From Pseudomonas mendocina (GTDB lineage: Bacteria > Pseudomonadota > Gammaproteobacteria > Pseudomonadales > Pseudomonadaceae), in assembly GCF_900636545.1 (NCBI RefSeq), contig NZ_LR134290.1, positions 186,001 through 250,000 on the forward strand: a stretch of 64,000 bases of DNA, given 5' to 3'. Positions 21,987 to 27,464 of this stretch are shown here, in pieces. Each line of letters starts with the position of its first letter. Position 1 is the first letter of the stretch. The notes beneath the pieces were generated by a model. That model ran no database searches and was not told the origin of the DNA. It worked only from the letters and a program-made list of their open reading frames with translations. The translations under genes and the position numbers were made by a program.

Positions 21987-22001
21987 CGTGCAAATTGCAC
22001 G
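21987..22001. promoter_or_regulatory. Palindromic activator site (UAS 1) of a sigma-54 promoter
   Basis: CGTGCAAATTGCACG, a perfect odd-centred palindrome centred at 21994. The same core GTGCAA-N-TTGCAC occurs at 25970-25986 ahead of the other sigma-54 promoter. Degenerate half copies follow at 22014-22031. The likely binder is AlgB, encoded between the two sites (inference). Confidence 0.7.
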
Positions 22002-22056
22002 TGTCGCAATTCATGCATCTTGCAAAGTGCATGGGGTAGGCAATTTTATAAATTTA

Positions 22057-22069
22057 TAAGTTGTTGATT
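22057..22069 (-). promoter_or_regulatory. IHF-like site
   Basis: TAAGTTGTTGATT; its complement AATCAACAACTTA fits WATCAANNNNTTR exactly. It lies in an AT-rich stretch between the activator palindrome and the -24/-12 promoter, where IHF bends DNA in sigma-54 systems. Confidence 0.6.
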
Positions 22070-22096
22070 TATAAAGATATTATTGGTGATTTGATG

Positions 22097-22113
22097 TTGG
22101 CATGAGCGCTGCA
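22097..22113 (+). promoter_or_regulatory. Sigma-54 (-24/-12) promoter 1
   Basis: TTGGCATGAGCGCTGCA, with the invariant GG (22099-22100) and GC (22111-22112) separated by 10 bp. Predicted start near 22124, 37 nt ahead of the small secreted protein gene at 22161. Confidence 0.75.
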
Positions 22114-22160
22114 AAATCAGTCGTGTAAGCCCCCGACTGACCTGCTGATGGAGAAGCGTC

Positions 22161-22472
22161 ATGAACATCGTCCGACTGAGCCTGTTTTGCGTCGCTGCAT
22201 TGCTGGTCAACGGGGCTTACGCCAAAGATTTCACCGGTTCGGCTGGCGCCACCGCCAAGACGGCTGAGTTCACCATTTCCAACTCGCCCGTCTGGGAGTC
22301 CCGTGTCGGTGCCCGGCAGGACGGCTCCGCCGAACTGCGTAGCCAGCCTACCCGCGCGGTCGGTGCCATTGGTGACGACGCCCAGTGGCTGCGTATTTCC
22401 GACGATGGCGACACCGATACCGCCAACCGTGAGCCGCGCCCTGCCAACAGCACCCAGCGCTGGGTGTTCTGA
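22161..22472 (+). CDS. Small secreted protein of unknown function
   Basis: 103 residues with a clear signal peptide (LSLFCVAALLVNGAYA, cleavage about residue 21). The mature part is Ala/Thr/Asp-rich and lacks cysteine; I recognise no domain. A good ribosome-binding site (GGAGAAG) and the sigma-54 promoter upstream support it as a real gene. It is followed after 18 bp by a small membrane protein gene and a terminator, forming a two-gene unit that is probably activated by AlgB. Confidence 0.75.
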   Translation: MNIVRLSLFCVAALLVNGAYAKDFTGSAGATAKTAEFTISNSPVWESRVGARQDGSAELRSQPTRAVGAIGDDAQWLRISDDGDTDTANREPRPANSTQRWVF

Positions 22473-22490
22473 CCGACAAGGAGTCCTGCC

Positions 22491-22676
22491 ATGTCCAGAA
22501 GTGCCATCCTGTTGATGATCATGACCTTGTTGAGCCTGGCCGCATTGTGGCTAAGCCCGGGCCTGGAAGAGGGTGCCGCCCTGCTGCTCAAGGGCGCCAG
22601 CGTCGTTTTCGGCCTGGGTTTCCTGGTGGCGCTGATGGCTGGGCGCCGCATCAAGTTCGATCCGGTCCTGCGCTGA
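22491..22676 (+). CDS. Small membrane protein of unknown function
   Basis: 61 residues with two predicted membrane helices (about 4-22 and 30-50) separated by a short GLEEG turn and ending in a basic RRIKFDPVLR tail. The ribosome-binding site is AAGGAG. Second gene of the sigma-54-driven unit, directly ahead of the bidirectional terminator. No family recognised. Confidence 0.72.
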   Translation: MSRSAILLMIMTLLSLAALWLSPGLEEGAALLLKGASVVFGLGFLVALMAGRRIKFDPVLR

Positions 22677-22699
22677 GCGTGATGCGGCACCGAAGCAAT

Positions 22700-22730
22700 A
22701 AAAAACGCCGCGAAGATCGCGGCGTTTTTT
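22700..22730. terminator. Bidirectional rho-independent terminator
   Basis: AAAAAACGCCGCG, loop AAGAT, CGCGGCGTTTTTT: a strong stem flanked by A and T runs that can end both the small-gene unit and the convergent algB-kinB operon. Confidence 0.93.
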
Positions 22731-22760
22731 ATTGCCCGAGTCATCAGTCCAGGTCAGACC

Positions 22761-24563
22761 TCAGACCGGCAGACTGAAGTAGAAGGTGGAGCCTTCGCCC
22801 GGGCGGGAGTGAACGCTGAGCTGGCCGCCATGCAACTGCACGATCTCCCGCGCCAGCGCCAGACCCAGACCGACGCCACCCTTGCGTCTGCCAACCTGAA
22901 CGAAGGGCTCGAAGATACGAGCCTGCTGCTCGAAGGGGATGCCCTCGCCGTCATCCTGCACGCTGACGATCACCTGCTCGCCGTGGCGGCGTACCTGTAG
23001 CCGCACCTCATCACCCGGGTTGCTGTAGCGCAGGGCATTGTCGATCAGGTTGTCGATCAGTCGCTCCAGTTGTGCAGCATCGAGGCTCAGGCGCGGCAGC
23101 GGTTCGTGAACCTCGCAGACCAGTGTCACTTCACGCTCGGCGGTCTTCTCGACAAAGCGCTGCGGCGCCTGCCGGATCATCTCGGCCAGGTCGCAGGGAC
23201 GGCGCTGCAGGGTCTGCATGCCGTTCTGGTAGCGCGAGAAATTCAGCAGATCGTCGATCAACTGCACCAGGCGATGCATTTCCTCATCGACGGTGCGCAT
23301 CAGCTCCTGCTCACGGCCACTCGGTGGCAGCGAGAGGCGCTCGCGTAGCAAGCTGAAAGCCATGTGCATGCCGGTGATCGGCGTGCGCAGCTCGTGCGAG
23401 GCGCGCAGGATGAATTCGCTGCGCACACGCTCGAAGGCGCGTTGCTTGGTGACGTCACGCAGCACCATCACGGCCCCTACGCTGCCACCTTCGCTCACTT
23501 GGACCGGCGTCAGCGCCCAGGCCAGCAGACGGGTTTCACCGTCGCGCTCGATCTGCAGGTCGGCGGGCGGTTCGTACAGCAGCTCGCCTGCGAGTACCTG
23601 GCGCAGTGCCTCGTCGACGGCGTGATCCGGCAGCAGCGGTCCGATCGGTTGACCGAGGATATCGGCGTGCCAGGACAGCTGGCGTAGCGCTACGGGGTTG
23701 GCGTGCTCGATGCGGCCCTGCTCGTCGAGGATGACCAGGCCATCGTCGATGCTGTCGAGCACGGCTTTCAGGCGGCCTTCGCTGCTGAGCAACTGGTTGA
23801 GGTTGCTCGAATGGTATTCGCGCAGCGCCTCGGTCATCAGGCCGAAGCGGCGACTCAGCACTGCCAACTCCACCACGGGCGAGACCGGCAGTACCACATC
23901 GTATTTGCCCTGGCCGATCTGGTCAGCGGCGCGCACCAGCATATCGATGGGCGCGCCGAAGCGGCGGGCGATGCCGTGGGCGGTGAGTACGCCGATCGCC
24001 AGCACGGCCAGGCCGGTCAGTACCAGAAGCCCGGCGATCAGCTGGGAACGCTCGCCGGCCTTGTGCTCGGCGGCGATGACCCAGTTGACGACCTGATCCT
24101 GCTGTTCCAGCAGGTGATTGCGCAAGCGCTGAAAGGCTTCGGTGAAGGGTTTGTAACCGCCCAGGTTGTGCGGTGTTTCGCCAGGCGGGGTGCCGCCGCT
24201 GGCCGCTTTTTCCATCGCGTCGTAAAGCTCGGCAGCGCGTTCCAGTCCTCGTATGTAGTCGGCGCCGAGGTTGGTGTTGATCCCTTCCTCGAAGGTGGCG
24301 CGGAACGACTGGCGAATGGTCTCGAGGCGCTGCGCGTCAGGCTGCGGATCGATCAGCACGATCAGCTCGTCGCCCAGATGCTGGCGCAGCTTCTGGCCGA
24401 CCTGCACGGCATCGAAGCCACGCTGGATCAGTTCGCTCTGGCTACGCGCCATCTGGGTGACGCTGAACAGGCCGAGCAGCAAGCCCAGCAGTGCCACAGT
24501 GATCAACGCGGAAATGCTGAGGAACAGGCGTGTGCGAAGCTTCATCGGCAGCTTCATGATCAT
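22761..24563 (-). CDS. kinB: Sensor histidine kinase KinB
   Basis: 600 residues. N-terminus MKLRTRLFLSISALITVALLGLLLGLFSV is nearly that of P. aeruginosa KinB as I remember it. Two membrane helices (about 12-33 and 170-190) enclose a periplasmic helical domain, followed by HAMP (ARRFGAPIDMLVRAADQIGQG), a PAS domain (LDSIDDGLVILDEQGRIEHANP), HisKA with ASHELRTPITGM, and HATPase with DDGEGIPF and GGVGLGLALAREI. KinB is kinase and phosphatase for AlgB. The ATG at 24557 (MKLPMKLRTR) has better spacing from the GGA ribosome-binding sequence than 24563. It lies 7 bp downstream of algB. Confidence 0.94.
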   Translation of the reverse strand: MIMKLPMKLRTRLFLSISALITVALLGLLLGLFSVTQMARSQSELIQRGFDAVQVGQKLRQHLGDELIVLIDPQPDAQRLETIRQSFRATFEEGINTNLGADYIRGLERAAELYDAMEKAASGGTPPGETPHNLGGYKPFTEAFQRLRNHLLEQQDQVVNWVIAAEHKAGERSQLIAGLLVLTGLAVLAIGVLTAHGIARRFGAPIDMLVRAADQIGQGKYDVVLPVSPVVELAVLSRRFGLMTEALREYHSSNLNQLLSSEGRLKAVLDSIDDGLVILDEQGRIEHANPVALRQLSWHADILGQPIGPLLPDHAVDEALRQVLAGELLYEPPADLQIERDGETRLLAWALTPVQVSEGGSVGAVMVLRDVTKQRAFERVRSEFILRASHELRTPITGMHMAFSLLRERLSLPPSGREQELMRTVDEEMHRLVQLIDDLLNFSRYQNGMQTLQRRPCDLAEMIRQAPQRFVEKTAEREVTLVCEVHEPLPRLSLDAAQLERLIDNLIDNALRYSNPGDEVRLQVRRHGEQVIVSVQDDGEGIPFEQQARIFEPFVQVGRRKGGVGLGLALAREIVQLHGGQLSVHSRPGEGSTFYFSLPV

Positions 24564-24570
24564 TCCATGG

Positions 24571-25923
24571 TCAGAGGTTGTACTGCTTGCGTTTGCGGTA
24601 GAGGGTCGAGGTATCGATACCCAGGGTCTTGGCCGCCATGTCGAGGGTGCTGCTGCTGGCCAGTACCGCAGCGATGTGGGCCTTCTCCAGCTCCTCGAGG
24701 CTCATCGGTGCGCCGACCCGCACGGTGCTGGCTGGCGCTTCGCTGCTGCCACCGAGGCCGAGGTGGGCAATCTCCACGGTCTCGCTCTGGCAAATGATGC
24801 TGGCACGCTCGATGACGTTGCGCAGTTCGCGGATATTGCCTGGCCAGCGATAGGCCTGCAGGGCCGCTGCCGCCTCGGGGCTGAAGGCGCAGGCCGGGCG
24901 GCCGTAGTCGCTGACGAAACGGGCGAGAAAGCGTTCGGCCAGGGACATCACGTCTTCGTGGCGTTCGCGCAGTGGCGGCAGCTTGAGGGTGATGACGTTG
25001 AGGCGGTAGAGCAGGTCTTCGCGGAAACGCCCCTCACGGACCATTTCGTCGAGATCCAGGTTGGTGGCGGCGACGATGCGTACATCGGCGCGGCGCGTGA
25101 CCGGGTCGCCGACGCGCTCGTATTCCTTGTCCTGGATGAAGCGCAGCAGCTTGGGTTGCAGCGTCAGCGGGAAGTCGCCGATCTCGTCGAGGAACAGGGT
25201 ACCGCCATCGGCCTGGCTGACGCGGCCCTGGGTGCTCTCGCTGGCGCCGGTGAAGGAGCCACGGGCATGGCCGAACAATTCGCTCTCCATCAGCTCGGCA
25301 GTCAGCGACGGGCAGTTAATGGTCACGCAGGTGCGCTTGGCGCGGCGGCTCCAGCCGTGAATGGCGCGGGCCAGCTCGCCCTTGCCGGTGCCGGACTCAC
25401 CGAGGATGAGGATATTGGCGTCGGTGGCCGCGACCTGGCGCGCGGTTTCCAGGATCGACATCATCGCCGGGCTGTGTGAATCGAGCCCGTCCTTGACCTT
25501 GCGCACCTCGCCCTCCAGCGCTTCCAGGCGTGCGGCCAGGGTACGCACTTCCAGCTGCTTGGCGGCCGCCAGGCGCAGTTGATCGGGGGTGCAGGGTTTG
25601 ACCAGATAATCGGCGGCGCCGGCCTGGATGGCGTCGACCGCCGTGTCCACGGCCGAATGGGCGGTGACGATCACCACGCGCATCCACGGCGCCTGGATGC
25701 GCATCTGCGCCAGCAGGTCGAGACCGTTGTCCTCGCCCAGGCGCAGGTCGAGGAAGCACAGGTCAAACACCTGTCGATGCAACAGCGCTTCGGCTTGCGC
25801 CGCGCTGCTGGCCCCGGCGACGTCATAGCCTTCATCTTCAAGGCAGTAGCGGAAGGTACGCAGGATTGCCGCTTCGTCATCCACCAGCAGAATGCGCCCG
25901 CTGGTTTGCTCTGCAACTGCCAT
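24571..25923 (-). CDS. algB: NtrC-family response regulator AlgB
   Basis: 450 residues. Receiver domain 10-125 (LVDDEAAILRTFRYCLEDEGYDV, aspartate in FLDLRLGEDNG), AAA+ sigma-54 interaction domain about 145-375 (Walker A GESGTGKGELAR; GAFTGA loop present as GSFTGA; Walker B GGTLFLDEIGDFPL), C-terminal HTH (LDMAAKTLGIDTSTLYRKRKQYNL). The sequence closely follows P. aeruginosa AlgB, regulator of alginate and, as reported there, also a target of the bacteriophytochrome BphP. Start at 25923 (MAVAEQTSGRILLVDDE) with GGAG upstream is preferred over the longer frame. The pair algB-kinB is flanked by two matching sigma-54 promoters. Confidence 0.95.
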   Translation of the reverse strand: MAVAEQTSGRILLVDDEAAILRTFRYCLEDEGYDVAGASSAAQAEALLHRQVFDLCFLDLRLGEDNGLDLLAQMRIQAPWMRVVIVTAHSAVDTAVDAIQAGAADYLVKPCTPDQLRLAAAKQLEVRTLAARLEALEGEVRKVKDGLDSHSPAMMSILETARQVAATDANILILGESGTGKGELARAIHGWSRRAKRTCVTINCPSLTAELMESELFGHARGSFTGASESTQGRVSQADGGTLFLDEIGDFPLTLQPKLLRFIQDKEYERVGDPVTRRADVRIVAATNLDLDEMVREGRFREDLLYRLNVITLKLPPLRERHEDVMSLAERFLARFVSDYGRPACAFSPEAAAALQAYRWPGNIRELRNVIERASIICQSETVEIAHLGLGGSSEAPASTVRVGAPMSLEELEKAHIAAVLASSSTLDMAAKTLGIDTSTLYRKRKQYNL

Positions 25924-25969
25924 GTATGTGCTCCGTCTTGCTGGTCGATGCAGCTTAGTCAGGTAAAAA

Positions 25970-25986
25970 CCGTGCAAGTTGCACGG
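25970..25986. promoter_or_regulatory. Palindromic activator site (UAS 2)
   Basis: CCGTGCAAGTTGCACGG, arms of 8 bp perfectly complementary around 25978. Shares GTGCAA-N-TTGCAC with UAS 1. It lies 47 bp upstream of the algB start codon and 104 bp upstream of the promoter GG, so it could serve both AlgB autoregulation and activation of the BON gene. Confidence 0.72.
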
Positions 25987-26004
25987 CCTGAATGCGCAGA
26001 TACT

Positions 26005-26028
26005 GCACCCTGCATGCAGGCAGGGTGC
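26005..26028. repeat. Inverted repeat between UAS 2 and the promoter
   Basis: GCACCCTGC (26005-26013) and GCAGGGTGC (26020-26028) with a 6-bp loop. It lies upstream of the predicted transcription start of the BON gene, so it is more likely a protein site or DNA structure than a terminator. Confidence 0.5.
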
Positions 26029-26040
26029 CTTTATTGTGTT

Positions 26041-26053
26041 TAAGTTATTGTTT
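26041..26053 (-). promoter_or_regulatory. IHF-like site 2 (degenerate)
   Basis: TAAGTTATTGTTT differs from the perfect IHF match at 22057 in only two positions and sits at the same distance (63 bp) from the palindrome centre. Confidence 0.5.
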
Positions 26054-26079
26054 TACATGAACTTTATGTTCGCTCTTGG

Positions 26080-26096
26080 CTGGCATGGGGCTTGCG
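26080..26096 (+). promoter_or_regulatory. Sigma-54 (-24/-12) promoter 2
   Basis: CTGGCATGGGGCTTGCG with GG at 26082-26083 and GC at 26094-26095, 10 bp apart. Predicted start near 26107, 27 nt before the BON protein start codon. Confidence 0.82.
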
Positions 26097-26133: not shown

Positions 26134-26964
26134 ATGCCCCCGTTCAAACCCTTGATGCTGGCCGCCAGCACTGCTTTGCTGCTCGGCCTGACTCCATTGG
26201 CCAGCCACGCCGCCGAGGGCGCGCTGGCTTCGCAGCTCGAGGCTGCGCGCCAGGAAGGCTCGATCTGGACTGCCTTCGCGCTCAACCGCCATCTCAACCC
26301 GTTCAAGCTCAAGATCGACGTGGAGGATGGCGTGGCCACCCTCGGTGGCAAGGTCGAGAACGACGTGCAGAAGGAGCTGGCCGAGCAGGTGGCGCTGAGC
26401 ATAGAGGGCATCGACTCGGTGAACAATCGCATCGAAGTCGGCAGCGATGCCGTCGAGGGCAACCCGCCGGGGATGGTGCAGCGTCTCGAGGACGCCAGCC
26501 TCGCCGCCACGGTCAAGTCCAAGCTGCTGTGGAACAGCAACACCCGCGGCCTGGACATTCAGGTCAAGAGCGAGACCGGCAACATCACCCTGAGTGGTCA
26601 CGCCCAGACGCCCGCGGCCAAGGAGTTGGCGGGGCAACTGGCAGCCAATACCGATGGTGTGCGCGAGGTCTTCAACCACCTCAGCATCAGCACTGCCGAC
26701 AGCAGTAGCAGCGAAGTGCAAACCACCCTCGACGAAGCGCGCGAGAACATCAGCGACAGCTGGATCACCAGCAAGGTCAAGGCCAGCTTTCTCTACAGCC
26801 GTAACCTGGACGCCATGAACATTTCTGTGAACACCGACGATGGTCTCGTCAGCCTGCGCGGCAGTGTGCTGAGCAGCGCCGAGAAGCGCCTGGCGGTCGA
26901 GATCGCCCGCAACATTCGCGGCGTGCGTGGCGTCGATGCAGATGCCCTGCGTATCAACAGTTGA
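26134..26964 (+). CDS. Periplasmic protein with three BON domains
   Basis: 276 residues. A signal peptide (cleavage about residue 27, ASHA) is followed by three BON domains near 45-110, 125-190 and 205-272, each with the typical pattern, for example IDVEDGVATLGGKV, VKSETGNITLSGHA and VNTDDGLVSLRGSV. BON proteins (OsmY-like) are periplasmic stress proteins thought to bind phospholipid or envelope surfaces. The ATG at 26134, with AGGAG upstream, is chosen because it opens the signal peptide. First gene of the sigma-54 promoter 2 unit. Confidence 0.88.
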   Translation: MPPFKPLMLAASTALLLGLTPLASHAAEGALASQLEAARQEGSIWTAFALNRHLNPFKLKIDVEDGVATLGGKVENDVQKELAEQVALSIEGIDSVNNRIEVGSDAVEGNPPGMVQRLEDASLAATVKSKLLWNSNTRGLDIQVKSETGNITLSGHAQTPAAKELAGQLAANTDGVREVFNHLSISTADSSSSEVQTTLDEARENISDSWITSKVKASFLYSRNLDAMNISVNTDDGLVSLRGSVLSSAEKRLAVEIARNIRGVRGVDADALRINS

Positions 26965-27029: not shown

Positions 27030-27464
27030 ATGAGCAGCAAGACCGCACAACTCAATGAACTGATCGAAATCACCCGCGACGGCAAGCGCTTCTACGAGCA
27101 TGCCCACGATGAGGTCAAGGATATCCGCCTGCAGGCGCTGTTCCGTGACATGGTGCGTGCCAAGACTCAGGTGATCGATGCGCTGAGCGTCAAGGTCGCC
27201 GCCAACCAGAGCGAGCCGGCGTCCGGCGGCACCATGCTGGGCAAGCTGCGTCAGTTCTACGCCGACACCCGCGCGACCCTGGCCAAGGATGAAGATGCCA
27301 CCTATGTGGCACAACTGGAGGAAGCGGAAGACCGCATCCTGCATGCGTTCGAGGATGCGCTGGAAAGTGCCGATCAGGACGTCCGCGTGCTGCTGGCCGT
27401 GGAGATGCCCAAGGTGCGTGCCTGCCACGAACGCATGCGCGCGCTGAAGCAGAACATGCAGTAA
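27030..27464 (+). CDS. PA2169-like four-helix-bundle protein (DUF2383-type)
   Basis: 144 residues, predicted all-helical and ferritin-like, beginning MSSKTAQLNELIEITRDG, with RFYEHAHDEVKD and LEEAEDRILHAFEDAL helices. This matches the PA2169 family, stress-related proteins of unknown chemistry. The start at 27030 has AAGGAG upstream. It follows the BON gene by 65 bp and is probably the second gene of the same AlgB/sigma-54 unit, ending at the terminator at 27484. Confidence 0.82.
   Translation: MSSKTAQLNELIEITRDGKRFYEHAHDEVKDIRLQALFRDMVRAKTQVIDALSVKVAANQSEPASGGTMLGKLRQFYADTRATLAKDEDATYVAQLEEAEDRILHAFEDALESADQDVRVLLAVEMPKVRACHERMRALKQNMQ

Follow-up and report, generated by a model that had tools for sequence, protein, structure and literature searches.

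Sigma-54-type promoters with paired TGCA-N3-TGCA boxes beside algB-kinB of Pseudomonas mendocina appear to belong to a wider conserved AlgB promoter switch

Enhancer-dependent sigma-54 promoters of the NtrC type present paired upstream operators, an IHF site and a -24/-12 element, in that order. AlgB resembles the NtrC-type activators in its receiver, its GSFTGA-bearing AAA+ domain and its Fis-type HTH, and it is said, in work by Leech from 2008, to act at algD in alginate control. At algD it works on a sigma-22 promoter and independently of phosphate. In E. coli, the DegS-RseA system relies on a PDZ-gated protease whose trigger is the aromatic C-terminal tripeptide of misfolded porins. DegS has been compared with AlgW, which in P. 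aeruginosa is activated by MucE, a small envelope protein ending in RWVF: according to the available part of PMC8545111, both the MucE tail SVRDELRWVF and the tripeptide WVF alone activate AlgW in vitro, and the -3R of the tail contacts AlgW E285. As far as the accessible text of PMC3819740 goes, mucE expression was raised by AlgU only, of five sigma factors tested, and mucE orthologues are reported in P. aeruginosa only. In Azotobacter, alginate yield was unaltered by algB mutation (available part of PMC6979010), and published HT-SELEX work covers AlgB (available part of PMC8041468).

The locus described here follows the NtrC-type order of elements, but differs from other NtrC-type promoters in its core, TGCA-N3-TGCA, in the 31-32 bp that separate the paired sites and in its small envelope or stress-type targets. 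Compared with the AlgB-KinB control of alginate the regulator is identical, whereas the promoters are of the sigma-54 type and the genes are others, a mode different from that at algD. Among the products are small, predicted envelope proteins ending in RWVF like MucE, yet their genes lie behind sigma-54/AlgB-box promoters, are spread over many Pseudomonas species and encode otherwise dissimilar proteins. As in DegS-RseA, an aromatic C-terminal tripeptide is predicted to trigger a PDZ-gated protease; a purpose-made protein under transcriptional control would take the place of misfolded porins.

The window analysed is a stretch of 64,000 nucleotides of P. mendocina (contig NZ_LR134290.1, positions 186,001 to 250,000), with the following features around algB and kinB:

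21988..22000 (centre 21994), plus strand: candidate AlgB box A1, distal operator of the 22161 unit, GTGCAAATTGCAC
22020..22032 (centre 22026), plus strand: candidate AlgB box A2, TTGCAAAGTGCAT, core TGCA-AAG-TGCA, scored 8/8 (locus L280)
22057..22069, plus strand: IHF-like site of the 22161 unit, TAAGTTGTTGATT, 9/9
22098..22112, plus strand: -24/-12 promoter of the 22161 unit, TGGCATGAGCGCTGC, GG-N10-GC
22161..22472, plus strand: 103-aa protein, signal-peptide-like start (by eye), C-terminus STQRWVF (AlgW-agonist-like)
22491..22676, plus strand: second gene of the 22161 unit, coding for a PA3371-family protein (NF041882) of 61 aa
22697..22735, no strand assigned: terminator-like inverted repeat (by eye) in the gap where the 22491 gene and kinB converge
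22761..24563, minus strand: kinB (KinB_sensor, HAMP, PAS, HisKA, HATPase)
24571..25923, minus strand: algB, candidate activator (receiver, Sigma54_activat, HTH_8; GSFTGA loop)
25972..25984 (centre 25978), plus strand: candidate AlgB box B1, distal operator of the BON unit, GTGCAAGTTGCAC
26003..26015 (centre 26009), plus strand: candidate AlgB box B2, CTGCACCCTGCAT, core TGCA-CCC-TGCA
26041..26053, plus strand: IHF-like site of the BON unit, TAAGTTATTGTTT, 8/9
26081..26095, plus strand: -24/-12 promoter of the BON unit, TGGCATGGGGCTTGC, GG-N10-GC
26134..26964, plus strand: three-BON-domain protein, signal-peptide-like start (by eye)
27030..27464, plus strand: four-helix-bundle protein of the DUF2383 / PA2169 family (frame open from 26961, ATG at 27030 the likelier start), probably in one operon with the 26134 BON gene

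An earlier sequence-only reading had placed palindromes at centres 21994 and 25978, IHF-like sites starting 63 bp from each centre (22057 and 26041) and a -24/-12 promoter ahead of both units, and all of these coordinates hold. It had missed a second TGCA-N3-TGCA core in each promoter, 32 bp (A1 to A2) and 31 bp (B1 to B2) downstream of the first. Both promoters show GG-N10-GC with the TGGYAY...TGC of sigma-54 (RpoN) promoters, as well as the paired in-phase upstream operators and IHF-like site of enhancer-dependent bEBP promoters. TAAGTTGTTGATT fits the IHF consensus as read on the opposite strand, YAANNNNTTGATW.

Genomes were searched with a simple pattern, TGCA-N3-TGCA followed by -24/-12, and loci with a scored composite scan allowing imperfect half-sites and an operator distance of 30-33 bp. 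A strict form of the composite was given up in favour of the scored scan; it had placed sites near algB in 14 of 41 regions, and by eye two of these sites looked like chance. Among the 162 unique composites scoring at least 30, many of which are from related species, the operators lay 31 bp apart in 139 and 32 bp apart in 23; the IHF site started 62-63 bp from the first operator centre in 148, while in 153 that centre and the T of TGG were 101-104 bp apart. AlgB had been proposed to drive two small envelope regulons. Both are present in the window, but the proposal was an understatement, as this promoter type precedes several gene families genus-wide.

What is new here is the class of small WVF-tailed proteins behind the boxes. 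Small size together with a WVF-type tail (WVF or a close variant) was found in 53 of 104 distinct first proteins, that of 22161 included, and at algB-adjacent composites small proteins whose tail resembles the AlgW trigger are the commonest product. Away from the sampled algB loci just 9 of 38 distinct first proteins carried such a tail. The algB loci, 1.28 Mb in all, contained 91 small WVF frames, of which 88 follow a composite and 3 have no box; the 413 kb taken from other loci contained none. These products share with the MucE-type agonists a C-terminal WVF on a small, apparently exported protein, export being judged by eye from sequence. A DegS/AlgW-like protease was present in 8/8 genomes, every match scoring under the model's DegS cut-off, and its E285 equivalent was conserved in every one.

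It is possible, if rather doubtful, that AlgB drives the units while the WVF proteins are not AlgW agonists and the tail is meant for another PDZ protein or purpose. The W281 equivalent was found in 7/8 proteases, with Y in its place in the window genome, and the K287 position is Q in all eight. Moreover, the flanks of 14 of 104 algB loci contain no WVF-type frame driven by a box, and 51 of the 104 first proteins (BON, DUF3509, DUF2383-like and others) lack a tail of this type. Against this stand the tails themselves. Among homologues of the 22161 protein 51/55 end in RWVF, and in a second family 93/94 end in WVF; both sets had been restricted beforehand to sequences ending in F, and in them the four C-terminal residues hardly vary, vs averages of 0.72 and 0.81 for the remainder. 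The common tail is carried by unlike protein bodies, and WVF by itself suffices for AlgW activation in vitro (PMC8545111, available part).

Less probable still, we consider, is a stress role of the WVF units in parallel with AlgU, with kinB-linked mucoidy arising only through RpoN-driven algW expression. In strain PAO579, RpoN is reported to act via the expression of algW and pilA, and algW promoter activity to be RpoN-dependent (PMC3684759, available part). However, such a scheme leaves the activation of a ligand-gated protease unexplained, since more protease is not a ligand.

That AlgB is the activator of both units, as first proposed, is supported by its distribution, its position and elimination. 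The simple pattern was found in 192 of 199 genus genomes and, read backwards, gave 2 matches over all 199. The KinB sensor was present in 191, all of which match. The pattern was thus present in 191/191 KinB genomes vs 1/8 KinB-free ones (Fisher p 3.6e-12, uncorrected for kinship). Seven KinB-free genomes were pattern-free; the eighth had two GC-rich matches, of which the one fetched (L066) scored 24 in the full scan. All eight lack algB, their best AlgB match being at paralogue level (42-46% identity). DUF3509 paralogues occur in six of them, and the 8 DUF3509 loci scanned in these algB-free genomes gave no composite (best scores 23-25). The box-bearing window genome and genome G014 likewise hold DUF3509 paralogues only. 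Box-free, algB-free genome G079 has kept the rpsO-pnp neighbourhood, but a motif search gave no BON frame where genome G165 has its own.

As befits an AlgB regulon, the sites not only co-occur with algB but also sit near it. Of 100 distinct algB loci, those of the sister genera among them, 98 have a composite scoring at least 28, which is nearly always divergent from algB; the two loci with no composite were L393 (best score 24) and L266, where the algB match is without residues 1-139. Among named loci with AlgB of at least 75%, a divergent site was seen in 58/59, vs 0/20 loci of other activators. Pseudomonas putida NBRC 14671 (L386) has the site, as do 5/5 genomes of two sister genera. Order-wide, 59 of 293 genomes matched the pattern: 13/13 Pseudomonadaceae, and 46/280 outside the family, mostly chance-like by eye. 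Two order-wide matches were scored, at 31 (L333) and 27 (L334).

A different NtrC-family activator might act on the palindromes, with algB a mere neighbour. In genome G344, which is without AlgB, one site reaches a score of 31, so that another activator may act at boxes of this kind. Nevertheless we regard this alternative as very improbable, because boxes and algB are absent together, because the site is so regularly close to algB, and because of elimination in the small genome G014. There, 11 sigma-54 activators were found with AlgB as query, and 10 of them have 70-90% orthologues in G079, whereas AlgB is without one. In this comparison of one positive genome with G079 and G185, no other activator fits the distribution. 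From co-occurrence, location and elimination, AlgB is therefore likely the activator of the composite promoters.

The palindrome by itself is weak evidence; what is special is the combination of elements. The exact palindrome occurs twice in the whole 5.19 Mb genome, at the two window promoters. Allowing up to 1 mismatch, the genome holds 5 places vs 9 for the reversed control, and with up to 2 mismatches the window holds 2 vs a shuffle mean of 3.58. Counting GTGCAANTTGCAC in algB-free genomes, as had been suggested, would be a misleading test: this 13-bp palindrome is present in 161/199 genus genomes, and among the non-promoter copies listed 7/9 lie in the rpsO start context (L008 and L016 were translated), one of them in algB-free G079. 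Palindrome counts were therefore dropped as uninformative. That the recurrence is due to chance, or to a functionless duplicated promoter, would agree with this lack of enrichment but is contradicted, to the point of near impossibility, by shuffled 12-kb windows, of which 0/205 scored at least 28 and 7/205 reached 27, and by an operator spacing of 31 or 32 bp in 162/162 unique sites. As a background for the scan, 3 of 515,178 positions scored at least 28 over the activator loci, among which algB loci are also counted.

Anatomy, spacing, conservation, algB co-occurrence, position, tails and the presence of the protease, all read from sequence, lead us to hold with considerable confidence that AlgB-responsive sigma-54 promoters of Pseudomonas and neighbouring genera drive envelope and stress units, among them predicted AlgW-triggering WVF proteins. 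In this mechanism, two TGCA-N3-TGCA AlgB operators would lie near -130 and -98, separated by three turns of the helix. AlgB would be active as AlgB-P when KinB leaves the phosphate on, AlgB-P would bind the operator pair, and an IHF bend would loop it onto sigma-54 polymerase at the -24/-12 promoter. Small envelope and stress units, both window units among them, would thus be driven, a frequent output being a small membrane-anchored or secreted protein with the tail WVF, mostly RWVF. This protein would bind the AlgW PDZ domain as MucE does, leading to MucA cleavage and release of AlgU. Such a path from AlgB to AlgW, predicted from genomes that include no identified P. aeruginosa, could explain the AlgW-dependent mucoidy seen after kinB loss. 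AlgB binding, its phosphate dependence, IHF looping, export and AlgW activation are steps that we infer.

On balance we favour, with some reserve, a wider proposal: the ancestral task of AlgB may have been a sigma-54 envelope-stress regulon with a dedicated AlgW-trigger gene, and not alginate. The RWVF protein would then mimic the misfolded-porin signal. If phospho-AlgB makes the RWVF trigger, the kinase/phosphatase pair and, via BphP, light could fire MucA-AlgU on command, and because AlgU raises algB, positive feedback could lock the response in.

A literature search that lay outside the subscription KinB papers turned up no account of the sites or of WVF proteins driven by such boxes, and no paper joining PA5482 or PA4739 with AlgB. 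A figure legend of the KinB-AlgB-BphP pathway marks the genes downstream of AlgB as not known (PMC6932827, available part), and the accessible passages of the KinB/AlgW literature, including PMC3684759, name RpoN-dependent algW expression and do not name an AlgW ligand. The window promoters appear, from the genomes compared, to be part of a wider conserved AlgB promoter switch in Pseudomonas and close relatives, and the sites supply a defined operator and a target list in nearly every sampled Pseudomonas. The WVF-tailed protein is a concrete candidate for the link from a two-component system to regulated MucA proteolysis, and is likely a missing step in alginate control.

The sequence-only reading had placed two sigma-54 promoters around algB-kinB, and both were found at exactly the positions it gave. 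Its recurring palindrome, IHF-like site and -24/-12 promoter stood, but its single operator per promoter did not, as a second operator is present at each. At both promoters the two operators are followed by the IHF-like site and then the -24/-12 promoter.

Promoters and units in the window
Operators of the 22161 unit: centres 21994 and 22026, 32 bp apart, core TGCA-N3-TGCA
Operators of the BON 26134 unit: centres 25978 and 26009, 31 bp apart, core TGCA-N3-TGCA
Unit 1: gene at 22161 (protein ending STQRWVF) and gene at 22491 (PA3371 family)
Unit 2: BON gene at 26134 and a DUF2383 gene

GTGCAA-N-TTGCAC without mismatch occurs twice in the 5.19 Mb genome, both times at these promoters. With up to one mismatch it was found at five places genome-wide, compared to nine for the reversed control, and the palindrome alone is thus unremarkable; what recurs is the composite. 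Palindrome counts are also spoiled by a coding coincidence, GTGCAAGTTGCAC near the rpsO start (EVQVALL codons), seen in seven loci (L008, L010, L011, L012, L016, L019 and L021). Loci L005 and L022 hold non-promoter copies of another kind.

The pattern TGCANNNTGCA-N68..98-TGGYAYN6TGC matched in 192 of the 199 Pseudomonas genomes, and its backwards-read control gave two matches across all 199. A second pattern with shorter spacing matched in 193/199 (control, one match). In the full scan, which scores two operators, IHF-like site and -24/-12 promoter to a maximum of 34, 54 of the 59 loci fetched from both searches reached at least 28 and five scored 24-27. Part of the loose-pattern matches is chance: L066, L070, L094, L096 and L117 scored only 24-27, and since sequence like that of L094 was seen again in G019 and G111, conserved coding regions can give rise to such accidental matches.

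When windows of up to 12 kb around algB from 40 sampled genomes and the window were scanned, a composite of at least 28 was present in 40 of 41, compared to none of 205 Markov-shuffled windows (seven of 205 at score 27). A named set comprised, among the matches listed, 79 loci, 59 whose AlgB reaches 75 % identity or more and 20 of other activators; among these listed matches 58/59 of the former and 0/20 of the latter had a site that diverges from algB and lies no more than 2.5 kb away. The 20 include two Lysobacteraceae loci (AlgB-like protein, 58 % identity) where a site was present in a different orientation. In the Lysobacteraceae loci L439 and L440, a site some 1.5 kb ahead of the gene for an AlgB-like protein (58 % identity) has a pair of TGCA-N3-TGCA cores separated by 20 bp, roughly two turns of the helix, together with an IHF-like site and TGGCACGCGCTCTGC; it may represent the Pseudomonas operator, differently spaced, in a family other than Pseudomonadaceae.

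Pooling the sampled genomes, the named set (among the matches listed) and five loci of two sister genera, with the window excluded, gave a composite at 98 of 100 distinct algB loci. The exceptions were L393 (best score 24), where a BON frame adjoins algB, and L266 (genome G094), where the algB match starts at residue 140, the first 139 residues (receiver) being absent. L266 is without the usual divergent promoter, yet G094 has four pattern matches. The geometry is tight: among 162 unique composites scoring at least 30, operator spacing is 31 bp in 139 cases and 32 bp in the other 23; in 148 the IHF-like site begins at a distance of 62 or 63 bp from the centre of the first operator, and in 153 the T of TGG lies 101-104 bp from that centre. 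In the sister genera (five genomes, all those the order sample contained) AlgB is 79-81 % identical and a composite diverges from algB in 5/5, at about 85-150 bp in four; in G319 the pattern match lies 1.2 kb from algB, with a second, weaker composite nearer.

The KinB sensor domain was found in 191 of the 199 genomes, all 191 with a pattern match, whereas seven of the eight KinB-less genomes had none (Fisher p 3.6e-12, ignoring kinship among genomes). G194 had two matches in GC-rich sequence, one of which (L066) scored 24 in the full scan. The shorter-spacing pattern was missing from six of the eight and matched once each in G118 and G194 (the latter, L096, scoring 25). In the eight KinB-less genomes the best AlgB matches were 42-46 % identical, a level like that of AlgB paralogues in the window's genome, so algB is also absent from them. 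The predicted co-occurrence with algB was thus borne out, the pattern and KinB/AlgB being missing together in seven genomes and the composite being present at 98/100 algB loci.

G079 and G185, both box-free, look like separate cases: G079 has the rpsO type and pnp neighbourhood common to G165-like genomes, and the activators of G185 are nearer to those of G014 than the activators of G079 are. With AlgB as query, G014 (3.7 Mb, with boxes) has 11 sigma-54 activators. Ten have reciprocal-best orthologues of 70-90 % in G079, the exception being AlgB; in G185, close orthologues are missing for AlgB and for one further activator (38 %), the second of which is present in G079 at 70 %. Between pnp and the next large gene no BON frame was found in G079, whereas G165 has one (L278 compared with L279); the remaining neighbourhood is kept in G079, regulator and target being absent together.

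Composite-like sites were also found in two genomes of another family that have no AlgB, a high-scoring one in L333 (G344; score 31) and one in L334 (G482; score 27). The genes behind them seem by eye to belong to export or pili; the sites may serve a related activator that recognises a similar operator, or may be due to chance. Conservation, co-occurrence and elimination support and extend the proposal that AlgB activates both units, and AlgB is very probably their activator.

First genes behind the boxes encode three-BON and OsmY-like single-BON secreted proteins, DUF2383-like and DUF3509 proteins, a 300-aa membrane protein, a hemerythrin-like protein, DUF1328-like small membrane proteins and small proteins with C-terminal WVF; family models cover DUF3509 and the window's own proteins, the other names being given by eye. 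Composites scoring at least 29 are followed by 104 distinct first proteins, a sample favouring algB loci; 53 of these had a WVF-type tail (WVF 46, WIF/WMF/WTF 3, LVF/YIF 4), 44/66 from algB loci compared to 9/38 from other loci. R precedes WVF in 34 of the 46. Homologues of the 22161 protein end in WVF in 51/55 cases, all RWVF (of the other four, two are named partial by NCBI and two have 163 and 84 residues), and those of the algB-adjacent family in 93/94 (92 RWVF, one GWVF). Mean column conservation was 1.00 for the last four residues in both families and 0.72 (22161) and 0.81 (algB-adjacent) elsewhere, although the alignments (51 and 93 sequences of 61-124 residues) held only sequences ending in F, so that last-column conservation is partly imposed.

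Within 1.28 Mb of 104 algB loci (four duplicates; named part among the matches listed) there were 91 small WVF frames; upstream of 88 of them, at no more than 330 bp, lies a composite scoring at least 27, and the other three have none. Four WIF/WMF/WTF frames also had an upstream composite. No small WVF frame was found in 413 kb of other loci, among them L154, which takes in the window's algB. Overall, a box-driven WVF-type frame flanks 90 of 104 algB loci (47/59, 38/40 and 5/5 by set).

Such tails recall MucE, the P. aeruginosa AlgW activator, which ends SVRDELRWVF; WVF alone activates AlgW and the -3R of the tail contacts AlgW E285 (PMC8545111). The RWVF end is common to MucE and most WVF-tailed proteins here. 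MucE orthologues are reported from P. aeruginosa only, and of five sigma factors AlgU alone raised mucE expression (PMC3819740). A DegS/AlgW-like protease, scoring below the DegS model cut-off, was present in 8/8 genomes tested, which include G079 and G185, both without algB. With positions assigned by motif, the E285 equivalent is kept in 8/8 and the W281 equivalent in 7/8, the window's genome having Y there, and the K287 position is Q in 8/8. It is fairly likely that the WVF-tailed proteins are AlgW agonists.

The sequence itself shows the operators and their spacing, the IHF-like site and the promoter, the order of the genes and the tails. Mucoidy linked to kinB needs AlgB and RpoN. We propose that AlgB, as AlgB-P, would occupy the paired operators, IHF would bend the DNA and sigma-54 polymerase would open the promoter. 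By eye, the 22161 protein has a signal-peptide-like start, and a hydrophobic stretch lies N-terminally in the algB-adjacent family; the WVF-tailed protein would reach the periplasm and bind AlgW, upon which MucA would be cleaved and AlgU freed. Blocking lipoprotein transport raised algB about 5-fold (PMC7685553). A route from AlgB through WVF proteins and AlgW to AlgU would close a feedback loop to algB.
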